NCBI GenBank assembly: GCA_029262065.1
Contig: JAJDAC010000016.1
Span: 62,001 to 126,000 of the forward strand
Length of the DNA stretch: 64,000 nucleotides
Direction of reading: 5' to 3'
Source of the DNA: Candidatus Krumholzibacteriota bacterium
GTDB lineage: Bacteria; Krumholzibacteriota; Krumholzibacteriia; JAJRXK01
Shown here: piece by piece, positions 22,388 to 39,913 of the stretch
Layout: each line of letters begins with the position of its first letter
Numbering within the stretch: the stretch's first letter is position 1
Made by a program: the position numbers and the translations under genes
Notes under the pieces: model-generated
What the model was told of the DNA's origin: nothing
Databases searched by the model: none
Seen by the model: the letters and a program-made list of their open reading frames with translations, nothing else

Positions 22388-22408
22388 CCATCCCTTCTCG
22401 CGGTCGTC

Positions 22409-22487
22409 TTGACAGCCCGCGACCCGCCGCACTACCGTAGCTTTTCCATGGCCTCGCCCTCGGTTTGAGGCCGTTTTTGCGTATATT
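22409..22487 (+). promoter_or_regulatory. secA upstream region with candidate promoter elements
   Basis: TTGACA at 22409-22414 is a perfect -35, but the hexamer 18 bases later (TACCGT) is weak and the terminator-like hairpin at 22450 would lie downstream of it. A second -10-like TATATT at 22482-22487 lies past the hairpin but lacks a good -35. Which drives secA is not decided. Confidence 0.3.
22450..22478 (+). terminator. Rho-independent terminator after the J-domain gene
   Basis: GGCCTC (22450-22455) pairs with GAGGCC (22467-22472) around an 11-base loop and is followed by GTTTTT. It lies 62 bases after the J-domain stop and 60 before secA. Confidence 0.5.
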
Positions 22488-22537
22488 CTTGTTTCCCAAT
22501 CCTCTAGATATCCGAGCCCAGAGAGCGGTGCAAGCTC

Positions 22538-35068: not shown

Positions 35069-37732
35069 ATGTTCGCGTTCTGGTCGCGATCAGGATTCCC
35101 CCGGCTGGTCCTTTGGCTGGCCCTGTCCCATGCGGTCGCTGCGTCGGCCGCCAGCGAACGCATTCCCCGGGCGGCTGCGCCCAAGGACATGGTGTTCGAT
35201 GAGTTCGTCCACAACGCGGGCGAGCTCCAGATGAACATCACCAACTGGGGACTGTTGGGTTCGTATCCCAACTCGCCGGCTTTCTTTGCCGATCAACCCT
35301 CGGCCATGTGGCCGGCCGGTAGCGGCGTCGAGTACCTGTTCGCGGCGGGGCTGTGGGTTGGTGCCGTCCAGAATGGGGTTCCGTTGGTAACCACGTCGCA
35401 GTTCGAGGCGGAGCTGCGGCCAAACCCCGAAGACCCCCTGGATACCATCTGGGCCGCCGCCCAGGGACAGGCCAATGGCGCTCGGTATCCGGATCCCGGC
35501 GAGGACGACGACGGGGACGGATCTGTCAACGAAGACCCCTTGAACGGTCTGGACGACGACGGCGACGGTGCCATCGACGAGGATTTCGCGGCCATCGGCA
35601 ATCAGCATTTTCGTTGCGTCATGCGAGACGATCGGCCGCTCGCGCGCGAAGACAATCCCGAACACCAACCGTTGAACATCAGCGTCGTGCAGGAGACATT
35701 CCAGTGGGAGAACGACCAGGTCGATGACTTCGTGGGCTTCCAGTTCACGCTCACCAACGTAGGCAACGCTCCCTTGCAGCAGGTGTTCGTGGGGTTCTGG
35801 GCCGACCCCGACTGCGGCCCGCGTGACGTGGATGACGTGGCGTCGGATGACCTGCTTCACTTCGAAGAAGACCCGACCTACCGGGCTCCCGACGGCAGCT
35901 CCGTGCCGCTATCGATCGCCTGCGCCTACGATGCCGACGGCGACGGCGGTCGCACGCCGGGCTGGCTGGGAATGATGTTCCTGGACCATCCCACCGATCC
36001 CACCGGTGAAAACGCGCCGGAGTTCGTACGCATTCGCAGCTTCCAGTCGTTGCAACGCAACACACCGTTTGACCGTGGCGGTGATCCCAACAACGATCCC
36101 GAACGCTATGAGTTGCTGTCGACCAATGGTATCGACAATACCCCTCCACTGTTCACGGTCGAGCGCGCCAACGATGCGCGAATCCTGTTGTCCAACGGTC
36201 CCTTCGACAACATCGAACCGGGCGAAAGCCTGACGTTTCAGATGGCCATCGTCATGGGGGAGGGCCTGGCCGGTTTGAAGGCCAACGCCGCCCAGGCCGC
36301 GCTGACTTTCTACGGTGGATACTTCGATCGAGATGGCGATTCGTCCACGGGCGTGAAGGGCCGCGAGTCCCGCGTTTGCGCGGAAGACTTTCCACCGGGC
36401 AGCGGCGTCGAGATCACCGACCTGTTTCTGGACTGCGCCGTGGATCCCGGCGACGGCGTGCTGGCGGGAGATCGGATCACCGAAGCTGATCTCGACGAGG
36501 ACGGATGCGTGTACCGCAACGGCGATTGTCCTTTCGAAACGCTGCGGTCTTCGAACGATTGCTCCCAGGACGGACCCGCCGTGGAAGTGGCCGATCTGGT
36601 GGGGTGCACCGGCGTGGGCGGGAAGGAGTTCCATGTGCCTTGGCTGGTGGGACTGGCGCCCGACCCGCCCCCGCTGCGCCTGTGGGAAACCGATGGTCGG
36701 GTTCACCTGTTCTGGAACAGTCTGAGCGAGAACCTGAAGGACATTCGCCTGCAACAGGTGGATTTCGAGTCGTACCGATTGTGGCGAGCCGACGGTTGGG
36801 AGCGGCCGTTTGGATCTTCCATTCGCAACGGGCCCGAGGCTCGACTATGGCGTTTGATTGCGGAGTATGATCGCGTCGACGCGATGTTGGTCGACAATCC
36901 CAGTACGACGACGCCGCCCGAACCATTGCCCCTGGGAGACAACACCGGACTGGACGTGGTGAGGTACCAGCCAGAGGTATTGCGGCCGGACAGCCCGCAG
37001 GCGCAGGAACTGGCCGAGCTTCGGACGTTGGTCGACGAGATCGTGGCCTGGCGCCGACCCGCGGTGAGCGTCGACCCGTCCGCGTTTCTACGCTACGTGG
37101 GATCCGACGGACGCGTGACCGACGTGGGGCATGAGTTTCCCGAGCTGGCGAACTGGGACTGCTGTTACGACCAGGCCGATACCTTGCTCATGGATGCCGT
37201 GGGGCTGGTGTTCTACGAGTTCGTCGACCTGGACGTACACAACGGTCACAACTACTTCTACTCGGTCACCGCCACGGATTTCGACGCGCGCGTTACCAGC
37301 GGCGGCTTGACGCCCATTGGCCCCGGTCTGGCCGGGGATCCGCAGAGCAATTTCCAGTTCGCGGTGCCAAAACCCAGATCGCAGAGCGAAGAGGATCGGC
37401 GCCAGGACGGCCAGAACATCTACGTGTTTCCCAACCCAGCCACGCGAGATGCCTTGGCCGAGTTTGGCCAGTTGCATCCCAACGGTGATGATCCCACCGG
37501 AGTTCGCGTGATGTTCGCGAACCTGCCCCGCGAGCAGTGCACCATCCGAATCTTCACGTTGGCCGGGGATCTCGTCGAGACGGTGGTCCACGATGGCTCT
37601 CAGGGTGACGGGGGGGCGTTCTGGAACCTGGTGTCTCGCAATGGTCAGGAGATCGTCAGCGGGATCTACCTGTACTCGGTCGAGGCGCCGGGTTTTGACC
37701 GCGTCATCGGTCGCTTCGTGGTCGTGCGCTGA
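35069..37732 (+). CDS. Large secreted protein with Ca-binding loops and C-terminal sorting-like domain
   Basis: The protein has 887 residues from ATG 35069, just after GGAGGAGG; the frame is open back to 34907. A signal peptide spans about 1-30 (ALSHAVAASA). Near residue 150 are tandem Asp-rich loops (EDDDGDGSVNEDP, LDDDGDGAIDEDF) like thrombospondin-type-3 or dockerin calcium sites. Long beta-rich regions follow. The C-terminal 85 residues (FPNPATRD, FTLAGDLVETVV, FWNLVSRNGQEIVSGIYLY, RFVVVR) match a type-A sorting or FlgD-Ig-like domain and align with the end of the M6 protease at 15042. No enzymatic domain is recognised. It is probably exported to the surface or medium. Confidence 0.8.
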   Translation: MFAFWSRSGFPRLVLWLALSHAVAASAASERIPRAAAPKDMVFDEFVHNAGELQMNITNWGLLGSYPNSPAFFADQPSAMWPAGSGVEYLFAAGLWVGAVQNGVPLVTTSQFEAELRPNPEDPLDTIWAAAQGQANGARYPDPGEDDDGDGSVNEDPLNGLDDDGDGAIDEDFAAIGNQHFRCVMRDDRPLAREDNPEHQPLNISVVQETFQWENDQVDDFVGFQFTLTNVGNAPLQQVFVGFWADPDCGPRDVDDVASDDLLHFEEDPTYRAPDGSSVPLSIACAYDADGDGGRTPGWLGMMFLDHPTDPTGENAPEFVRIRSFQSLQRNTPFDRGGDPNNDPERYELLSTNGIDNTPPLFTVERANDARILLSNGPFDNIEPGESLTFQMAIVMGEGLAGLKANAAQAALTFYGGYFDRDGDSSTGVKGRESRVCAEDFPPGSGVEITDLFLDCAVDPGDGVLAGDRITEADLDEDGCVYRNGDCPFETLRSSNDCSQDGPAVEVADLVGCTGVGGKEFHVPWLVGLAPDPPPLRLWETDGRVHLFWNSLSENLKDIRLQQVDFESYRLWRADGWERPFGSSIRNGPEARLWRLIAEYDRVDAMLVDNPSTTTPPEPLPLGDNTGLDVVRYQPEVLRPDSPQAQELAELRTLVDEIVAWRRPAVSVDPSAFLRYVGSDGRVTDVGHEFPELANWDCCYDQADTLLMDAVGLVFYEFVDLDVHNGHNYFYSVTATDFDARVTSGGLTPIGPGLAGDPQSNFQFAVPKPRSQSEEDRRQDGQNIYVFPNPATRDALAEFGQLHPNGDDPTGVRVMFANLPREQCTIRIFTLAGDLVETVVHDGSQGDGGAFWNLVSRNGQEIVSGIYLYSVEAPGFDRVIGRFVVVR

Positions 37733-37801
37733 ACAAGCCAGTCGGATGGCCGTCGGATGGGCGCCGGTGCGCCGCCCGACCGGCCGCATCCGCGGCTCCG
37801 G

Positions 37802-37830
37802 TTGAGACGCGACGTGAATTCCACTATGTT
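37802..37830 (+). promoter_or_regulatory. Candidate htpG promoter
   Basis: TTGAGA (37802-37807), a 17-base spacer and TATGTT (37825-37830). It lies in the gap between the secreted-protein gene and htpG. No CIRCE inverted repeat was found. Confidence 0.5.
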
Positions 37831-37832
37831 CT

Positions 37833-37912
37833 CGGGGCCCGATCTACCGGGCATCTGCCCCGGCCTTCCAGGTCGGGGCGTTTTCCTGGGCACCCCGCGT
37901 GGTGCGGGCCCC
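37833..37912 (+). promoter_or_regulatory. htpG leader with terminator/antiterminator-like alternative pairings
   Basis: A 10-base-pair hairpin (37857-37866 with 37870-37879, one G-U pair, loop TCC) followed by GTTTT looks like an intrinsic terminator inside the leader. CGGGGC at 37833-37838 can instead pair with GCCCCG at 37857-37862, disrupting it. A third option is a perfect 8-base pairing of 37834-37841 with 37905-37912. If the promoter at 37802 is wrong, the hairpin may simply end the upstream operon. Confidence 0.42.
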
Positions 37913-37943
37913 AAATTCACCGCCATCGTGACGAGGTTCGATT

Positions 37944-39836
37944 ATGTCCGGCAAGACCAGGACCCTCAAGTTCCGCACGGAACTCGAGCAGTTGCTCGAC
38001 ATCATCATCCACTCCCTGTACTCGGAGAAGGAGATCTTCCTGCGGGAACTCATTTCCAACGCTTGCGATGCCATCGACAAGGCACGGTTCGAAGGCTTGA
38101 CCAATCCGGCCATCCTCGAGGACGGCAATGACTGGTACGTGCGTCTCGCGACGGATTCCGAAAACGGAACCCTCACCGTCTCGGACAACGGCATGGGAAT
38201 GTCCGAGGAAAGCATCGTCGAGCATCTCGGCACCATTGCCCGGTCGGGTACGCAGGAATTCCTGCAACGATTGCAGCAGGCCGACGCGGCGGAACGACCC
38301 ACCCTGATCGGTCAGTTCGGCGTGGGGTTCTACTCGGCGTTCATGGTGGCCGACCGCGTGACGGTGGACAGCAAAATGGCGGATCAGCCGGCGGTGCGAT
38401 GGGAATCCACCGGCAAGGGCAAGTTCAACCTGTCGGAGGGCACGCGCACCACGCGCGGCACCGAAATAACGCTGCACCTCAAGGAAGACGCCCAGGAGTT
38501 CCTGGACGACTACCGACTGCGCGCGGTGGTGAAGAAGTACTCGGACTTCGTTGAGCATCCCATCCTGAAGGCAACCGCTGCGCCCGCGCAAGAGGGCGAA
38601 GAGAGCGAAGCCGCGGAACCGGTCGACGAGACGCTGAACTCGCGCAAGGCGCTGTGGTTGCGTTCGCCGTCCGATGTGGAGGAAAGCGAATACGAGGAAT
38701 TCTACAAGCAGGTGTCGAAGGACTTCGAAGCACCGGCACGCACGATCCACTTCTCGGCCGAGGGCGCGCTGGAGTTCCGATCACTTCTGTTCCTGCCGGC
38801 GCGCAAGCCCATGGACTTCGCCTGGAGCGAGCCCAAGGCGGGCGTCCAACTCTACGTCCAACGCGTCCTCATCATGCAGGAATGCGAAGAGCTTCTGCCC
38901 CTGTACCTGAGGTTCGTGCGCGGCGTTGTCGACTCGTCGGATCTACCGCTGAATGTATCGCGTGAGATATTGCAACAGAACGATGTGCTCGCTCGCATTC
39001 GCAAGGCCCTGGTGAACAAGGTGCTGCGCGTGCTGGGACAGATGAAGGAAAAGGAATACGACGCCTACGTCGACTTCTATCGGGAGTTCGGCGCCACGCT
39101 TAAGGAGGGAGTCCACCAGGACTTCGAACAACGCGAGGCGCTCACCAGGTTGCTGTTGTTCGATAGCGTGGCGACGGGCGAGGGTTCGTACCTTTCGCTG
39201 GACCAGTACATCGAGGCCATGCCCGAGAGTCAGGACGTCATCCACTACCTCATTGGCGAAAACCGGGCGGCCCTGGTGAATTCTCCCTACGTCGAGCGCA
39301 TGCGGGAGCGAGGCGAAGACGTGTTGTTGCTGACCGACCCCATCGACGAGTTCATGGTGTCGTCCATCGGCGAGTACGAGGGCAAGACCCTCCAGGCCGC
39401 CGATCGCGGCAGCGTCGAGGACGACTCGGACGAGCTGAAGGAAGCCGCCGAGCGATTCGCCGGACTATTGACGGCCATGCAGGAAAAGCTGGCCGAGGTC
39501 AAGGAGGTGCGGTTGTCCGCGCGTCTGACGACGAGTGCTTCTTGCCTCGTGGCCGATGACGGGGCCATGAGTGCGCACCTGGAGCGCCTGATGTCCCGCA
39601 TGGGCCGCGGCGAGGAAGCGCCACCTCAGCCCCGCATCCTCGAGCTCAACGCAAAGCACCCGGCGGTGGAGGCCCTGTGGAAGCTCCACAGCGCCGATGC
39701 ATCGGATCAGCGGGTCGAGGACTACGCCCGTCTGCTCTACGACCAGGCCGTGCTGGCCGAGGGGTCGAAGGTGGGGGATCCGTCGGCCATGGCCAGGCGC
39801 ATCAATGACCTGATCGCGCGCTCGGTAACTGGCTGA
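37944..39836 (+). CDS. htpG: Hsp90-family chaperone HtpG
   Basis: The protein has 630 residues from ATG 37944, with GAGG upstream. The N-terminal GHKL ATPase domain has the catalytic Glu/Asn region ELISNACDAIDKARF, the nucleotide motif DNGMGM, and GQFGVGFYSAFMVAD. The middle domain has WLRSPSDVEESEYEEFYK and the conserved SREILQQN. The C-terminal dimerisation domain lacks a eukaryotic MEEVD tail, as expected. HtpG remodels client proteins in the cytoplasm with DnaK. It is a single-gene unit with its own promoter and structured leader, convergent with rpsT. Its stop lies in a 12-base tandem repeat that supplies two more in-frame stops. Confidence 0.97.
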   Translation: MSGKTRTLKFRTELEQLLDIIIHSLYSEKEIFLRELISNACDAIDKARFEGLTNPAILEDGNDWYVRLATDSENGTLTVSDNGMGMSEESIVEHLGTIARSGTQEFLQRLQQADAAERPTLIGQFGVGFYSAFMVADRVTVDSKMADQPAVRWESTGKGKFNLSEGTRTTRGTEITLHLKEDAQEFLDDYRLRAVVKKYSDFVEHPILKATAAPAQEGEESEAAEPVDETLNSRKALWLRSPSDVEESEYEEFYKQVSKDFEAPARTIHFSAEGALEFRSLLFLPARKPMDFAWSEPKAGVQLYVQRVLIMQECEELLPLYLRFVRGVVDSSDLPLNVSREILQQNDVLARIRKALVNKVLRVLGQMKEKEYDAYVDFYREFGATLKEGVHQDFEQREALTRLLLFDSVATGEGSYLSLDQYIEAMPESQDVIHYLIGENRAALVNSPYVERMRERGEDVLLLTDPIDEFMVSSIGEYEGKTLQAADRGSVEDDSDELKEAAERFAGLLTAMQEKLAEVKEVRLSARLTTSASCLVADDGAMSAHLERLMSRMGRGEEAPPQPRILELNAKHPAVEALWKLHSADASDQRVEDYARLLYDQAVLAEGSKVGDPSAMARRINDLIARSVTG

Positions 39837-39879: not shown

Positions 39880-39913
39880 AAAGCCCCGGCGCCGGGCGAG
39901 GCGTCGGGGCTTT
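39880..39913. terminator. Bidirectional rho-independent terminator between htpG and rpsT
   Basis: AAAGCCCCG (39880-39888) pairs perfectly with CGGGGCTTT (39905-39913), and the stem continues inward through a G-U pair and three G-C pairs. A-rich sequence on the left and T-rich on the right allow termination of htpG on plus and rpsT on minus. Confidence 0.8.

Follow-up and report, generated by a model that had tools for sequence, protein, structure and literature searches.

The htpG gene of this genome (5.77 Mb in 59 contigs) is tentatively proposed to be preceded by a fixed intrinsic terminator, which would lie between the htpG promoter and the gene, insulate htpG and probably end part of its transcripts. 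The locus falls within a stretch of 64,000 nucleotides (contig C16, positions 62001-126000), referred to here as the window. No Pfam family was found in the product of the gene upstream, the stop codon of which (37732) is separated from the htpG start by a gap of 211 nt. The features of the region are as follows.

35069-37732, plus strand: upstream gene, 887 aa (open reading frame and own gene caller)
37736-37797, plus strand: hairpin without T-tail, directly 3' of the upstream stop codon (dG -37.8, z -1.79)
37802-37830, plus strand: sigma-70-type promoter TTGAGA-17-TATGTT (sequence match), inferred +1 near 37837
37834-37841, plus strand: segment complementary to 37905-37912, lying in part before the inferred +1 (folding and shuffles)
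37837-37852, plus strand: small 5' hairpin of five pairs, compatible with the terminator (nascent folds from 37837)
37857-37884, plus strand: intrinsic-terminator hairpin (37857-37879) with GTTTT tail (37880-37884)
37905-37912, plus strand: partner of 37834-37841, the pair enclosing the terminator (folding and shuffles)
37931-37936, plus strand: Shine-Dalgarno-like ACGAGG, 7 nt before the ATG (sequence)
37944-39836, plus strand: htpG, HSP90 family, 630 aa (Pfam PF00183, E 2.6e-126)

Computation yields a terminator signature and a promoter match at this locus, with neither a competing fold nor any consistent thermal opening. Gene calls, start codons and the promoter and terminator scores come from simple scripts of our own, and comparisons within the genome draw on a sample of 834 kb of the 5.77 Mb, comprising 663 called genes and 751 kb of coding sequence. 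Terminators were ranked by d, a d'Aubenton-type score that combines a tail weight with the per-base stem energy.

The hairpin with its GTTTT tail, described in the first-pass annotation, was confirmed. Its stem has ten pairs, one of them G.U, and closes a 3-nt loop, with a dG of -19.2 kcal/mol. The d of 20.9, which rises to 40.3 when one extra T.G pair is counted, is attained by about 1% of 1000 dinucleotide shuffles of the htpG gap, placing the hairpin beyond chance. Across both strands of the sample, 39 sites have a d of at least 20.9, and 35 of them, the htpG hairpin included, lie in tandem or convergent gaps. By position there are 19 on the coding strand of tandem gaps (again counting that of htpG), 13 in convergent gaps, three antisense in tandem gaps and one in a divergent gap, with three places inside genes in 751 kb on both strands. 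Because the signature is rare in genes and in shuffles, the hairpin is assigned to the class of real terminators; judged from its sequence, it is a genuine intrinsic-terminator signature.

Within this class the htpG hairpin is weak, since the other 18 tandem-gap hairpins with d of at least 20 all exceed 30. It lies 124 nt past the upstream stop, farther than 14 of those 18 (26-107 nt); the remaining four are found 312-575 nt from a stop, where the preceding genes may have been missed by the caller. Small genes do escape the caller, one convergent with htpG being an example, and some stop distances are therefore overlong. Between htpG and this small gene there is a strong two-way terminator (39883-39910, plus-strand d 45).

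The genome holds no other copy of the leader hairpin at up to three mismatches, and a repeated element was rejected because the sole strong DNA match of the leader among 58 genomes is the leader itself. A weak match on contig C17 is inside a coding region, which we take to be mutS2-like.

The first-pass annotation had also placed a good promoter before the hairpin, and this holds, with 9 of 12 consensus matches at a site 26 nt 5' of the hairpin. On a matrix trained with 26 upstream matches from this genome, the htpG promoter being left out, it scores 16.2, the top value in the htpG gap. In 62.1 kb upstream of genes this score is reached 19 times in the sense direction (htpG included) and eight times antisense, and in 751 kb of coding sequence three times. 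In random 66-nt windows of tandem gaps a score of at least 12 is reached in 5.2% of cases in the sense direction and 0.175% antisense, and thus matches this good fall mostly on the strand of real promoters. With a first, smaller matrix the runner-up scored 8.2 against 12.6, and it overlaps the htpG start codon. The +1 near 37837 follows from the usual 7-nt distance after the -10. Between the hairpin and htpG no promoter scoring at least 10 was found, nor, by eye, a -35 element of a sigma-32-type promoter. A leader peptide seems unlikely: the sole frame across the leader (37757-38131) opens ahead of the inferred +1 and runs into htpG in a different frame.

On the preferred account, the hairpin would block read-through from the upstream gene and would probably also end part of the htpG transcripts, some 45 nt past their start. 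The remaining transcripts would pass the hairpin, allowing HtpG to be made, and the leader would contain no built-in RNA switch. The promoter is here presumed to be in use, termination to be partial and htpG to be the target of the hairpin. Should the promoter be active, htpG transcripts would have to traverse the terminator, whatever the origin of the latter. Since a promoter stands shortly before the hairpin and none after it, and the upstream stop is distant, a fixed terminator in the leader is preferred over a gene-end signal.

Several comparisons nevertheless count against a terminator in the leader. Shapes with d of at least 20 are rare in leaders, occurring on one of 114 leader sides (57 divergent gaps); the 280 tandem gaps hold 19 such hairpins and the 27 convergent gaps hold 13. 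Among tandem-gap hairpins with d of at least 10, a promoter scoring at least 12 lies within the 40 nt before in two of 24, where chance gives about 1.2. Furthermore, the same htpG layout was seen in no relative scanned.

These comparisons bear on a second explanation, held possible but with less confidence, in which the hairpin is an ordinary terminator closing the upstream gene, the promoter match is silent or of little consequence, and htpG is served by a promoter unlike the consensus. That the hairpin might end the upstream operon had been raised in the first annotation, and it is supported as an alternative, as terminator shapes follow gene ends (19 sense in tandem gaps and 13 convergent, against the one divergent). 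Their rarity in leaders favours a gene-end terminator. At most 19 of 304 upstream regions carry a promoter as strong as 16.2, and in a genome with such promoter-poor upstream regions the lack of a recognizable promoter 3' of the hairpin carries little weight. Against this explanation, 124 nt is far from a stop codon, a strong promoter match intervenes, and a long hairpin already stands right after the upstream stop. The latter has no T-tail; its energy is equalled or bettered in 2.1% of 193 tandem gaps.

The relatives offer few parallels. htpG is patchy in the phylum, being present in 12 of 80 genomes, this one included. It occurs in all four genomes of the family and in few others of the class. 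Ten of the 11 other htpG loci keep their 5' end and nine were scanned at the correct place; in none of the nine does a hairpin with d of at least 20 lie between a promoter and the htpG start. In one (L072, d = 42.1) the terminator overlaps what resembles a promoter and stops short of the -10, and in another (L007, d = 12.0) the match is inside the preceding transporter-like gene. Within the family, promoter-like sequences precede the htpG start by 94 nt in L006 and by 75 nt in L008 (that of L008 found by eye). No similarity was detected to the three same-family htpG leaders, the alignment scores being reached by 23-57% of shuffles, and gene order 5' of htpG is not conserved, with a transporter-like gene in two family genomes and a divergent gene in the third. 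No conserved layout was found at the htpG leader among these relatives, whose small number and large distance leave no room for a covariation signal.

The order of promoter, U-tailed hairpin and gene recurs before secA, in the window, and before ffh. At secA (22388-22537) a T-tailed hairpin (22448-22474) lies within 9 nt of a promoter. In three relatives the order is a J-domain gene, a promoter TTGACA-18-TAGCYT, a cold-shock-type gene, a hairpin and secA; the cold-shock domain was checked with Pfam in one of them and the J-domain was named by sight. The secA locus of the window retains the promoter and the hairpin and is missing the small gene. As a cold-shock-type gene separates the two in three relatives, the layout looks like a lost-gene scar, and on this comparison of sequences the secA promoter and hairpin seem to be what remains after loss of that gene. 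This apparent parallel, 15 kb away, lends something to a similar history for htpG, in which a small gene once lay between promoter and terminator and its deletion left the two adjacent before htpG. No relative has kept a small gene before htpG, however, and such a scar is considered unlikely.

The ffh leader has the following place.

L049 19417-19639, minus strand: ffh leader; also L109 and L111, upstream of ffh

In three of the four family genomes it consists of a promoter, a conserved CGCTGATTC, a species-specific hairpin and a T-tail, while L110 differs. This hairpin is possibly a promoter-proximal terminator or part of a short RNA. A wider comparison took in 30 of 75 ffh genes; the 26 further class members mostly have long leaders, in which CGCTGATTC is not at that place by eye.

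A promoter scoring at least 10 lies within 100 nt before four of six tandem-gap hairpins with d of 10-21 and before none of the 18 whose d exceeds 30 (Fisher p 0.0014; with htpG left out, three of five, p 0.0056). A rule that weak hairpins follow promoters and strong ones end genes was nonetheless rejected and given no weight, since the grouping is post hoc and the window control is unsupportive (the two of 24 against about 1.2 expected).

Regulated attenuation, whereby a protein, a ligand or stress would alter read-through of the terminator and so control htpG, is judged improbable. It has on its side the order of promoter, terminator and gene, a d lower than in the other sampled tandem-gap terminators, and a leader more structured than its own shuffles (z -2.13). 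It is weakened by the length of RNA before the hairpin, only 20 nt, by the lack of conservation, and by Rfam, which at gathering score gives no match in the 64-kb window and for the leader only matches below threshold.

A competing fold is also absent. The first-pass annotation had named two pairings, 37833-37838 with 37857-37862 and 37834-37841 with 37905-37912, that could form in place of the hairpin. Both complementarities are exact, but on folding neither replaces it. The 6-bp pairing is at chance, as 51% of 5000 shuffles match the 5' arm over as great a length and 73% of 5000 give at least 6 bp with either stem arm. Its bases 37833-37836 lie upstream of the +1, leaving two of six transcribed if the named promoter is used, and its probability is about zero from 20 to 70 C even for transcripts beginning at 37733, 37800 or 37833. 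The terminator stem has a probability of at least 0.999 over the same range in all transcripts computed. The 8-bp pairing, borderline against shuffles (4.6%), does not compete with the hairpin, which it encloses and leaves untouched, both forming with a probability above 0.9 in transcripts that start at or before 37833. From 37837 it reaches 0.17-0.35 for a transcript end at 37912 and is nearly absent for an end at 37962. As far as three same-family leaders can show, which are distant and align with this one no better than shuffles do, these pairings are not conserved, a point on which the proposal had been staked.

No mutually exclusive antiterminator fold was found, the upstream promoter of an attenuator being present as a sequence match. 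With a probability of about zero at every computed length and temperature, an antiterminator is rejected by folding and by chance-level complementarity, leaving the proposed terminator/antiterminator switch unsupported. A related idea, that htpG in this lineage is controlled by conditional read-through, in which heat or another stress affects RNA polymerase or a factor and no RNA switch takes part, and that ffh is controlled likewise in the family, is put forward as a long shot.

It is highly improbable that the element is a 5' hairpin without termination activity, serving for example mRNA stability. The tail of just four U after a G, and a d of 20.9 where 18 of 19 tandem-gap hairpins with d of at least 20 exceed 30, would suit such a role; set against this, a d of at least 20.9 is far above what gene content offers (the three places in 751 kb, both strands).

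The least probable reading is an RNA thermometer covering the ribosome-binding site, an idea that the structured leader of a heat-shock gene would suit. The temperature-sensitive fold first proposed finds no support, for the terminator stem stays shut up to 70 C and the Shine-Dalgarno region is flat. Accessibility was taken from equilibrium folding as the mean unpaired probability of 37932-37937, which for RNA from 37837 is 0.36 at both 10 and 37 C, then 0.37 at 50 C, and reaches 0.42 at 60 C, and for RNA from 37733 runs from 0.28 to 0.39 over the same temperatures. Between 10 and 50 C the start codon opens in the former transcript (0.04 to 0.42) and closes in the latter (0.63 to 0.53); with such opposite trends there is no consistent thermometer. 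Ribosome-binding-site opening with temperature was thus not found by equilibrium folding, and the thermometer is rejected for its flat accessibility. With switch and thermometer both unsupported, the hairpin is probably either an ordinary fixed brake or a gene-end signal.

The suggestion that no CIRCE-type site lies at htpG was borne out by pattern and matrix searches. All four family genomes, this one included, carry hrcA, and canonical CIRCE at up to three mismatches is absent from all four. On a CIRCE-like matrix the best score around htpG is 2.7, compared with 17-27 for the eight groES training sites. In each of the four genomes the groES promoter is flanked by two CIRCE-like 27-base inverted repeats, recognized by eye, and seven of the eight sites are also recovered by pattern with at most one mismatch.

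L069 914-940 and about 973-999 (this genome): groES CIRCE-like repeats; also L066, L067 and L068
Repeat 1: TTGGCARTC-N9-GNTTGCCAA type, preceding or overlapping the -35
Repeat 2: TTGGCARAC-N9-GTYTGCTGA type, just after the -10

From its sequence, this repeat pair is likely a variant HrcA operator pair. Besides an intact groEL, the genome has an incomplete further match to a chaperonin, containing an in-frame TAG (L070, G000:C20:2699-3244).

If the terminator belongs to the htpG leader, the basal level of a bacterial Hsp90 would be set by a fixed brake, and the locus would allow conditional read-through to be tested at little cost in a lineage that has been little studied; if it does not, the hairpin is an ordinary gene-end signal. 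The analysis also gives a first view of the terminator, promoter and heat-shock operator sequences of this lineage.

Among known systems, terminator/antiterminator attenuators have the order promoter, terminator, gene, together with a competing antiterminator fold. The htpG leader shares the gene order, but it has no competing fold and only 20 nt before the hairpin. With HrcA/CIRCE control it has in common a heat-shock gene in an hrcA-bearing genome, yet, unlike groES, htpG has no CIRCE-like site. A search of the open-access literature found nothing on a terminator in the leader of htpG, a weak indication that no such paper exists. In E. coli, premature termination has been mapped in 5' UTRs (PMC7815308). 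Those cases resemble htpG in that a terminator shape follows the promoter and precedes the start codon; they differ in having mapped 3' ends, the htpG terminator being predicted from sequence and having neither a regulator nor an evident upstream ORF. The closest likeness is to the intrinsic (Rho-independent) terminator itself, in the GC-rich stem, short loop, T-tail and intergenic place, although the tail at htpG is short and the hairpin stands behind a promoter, far from the upstream stop. The htpG hairpin is a known kind of terminator, in a place that is ordinary or slightly unusual.
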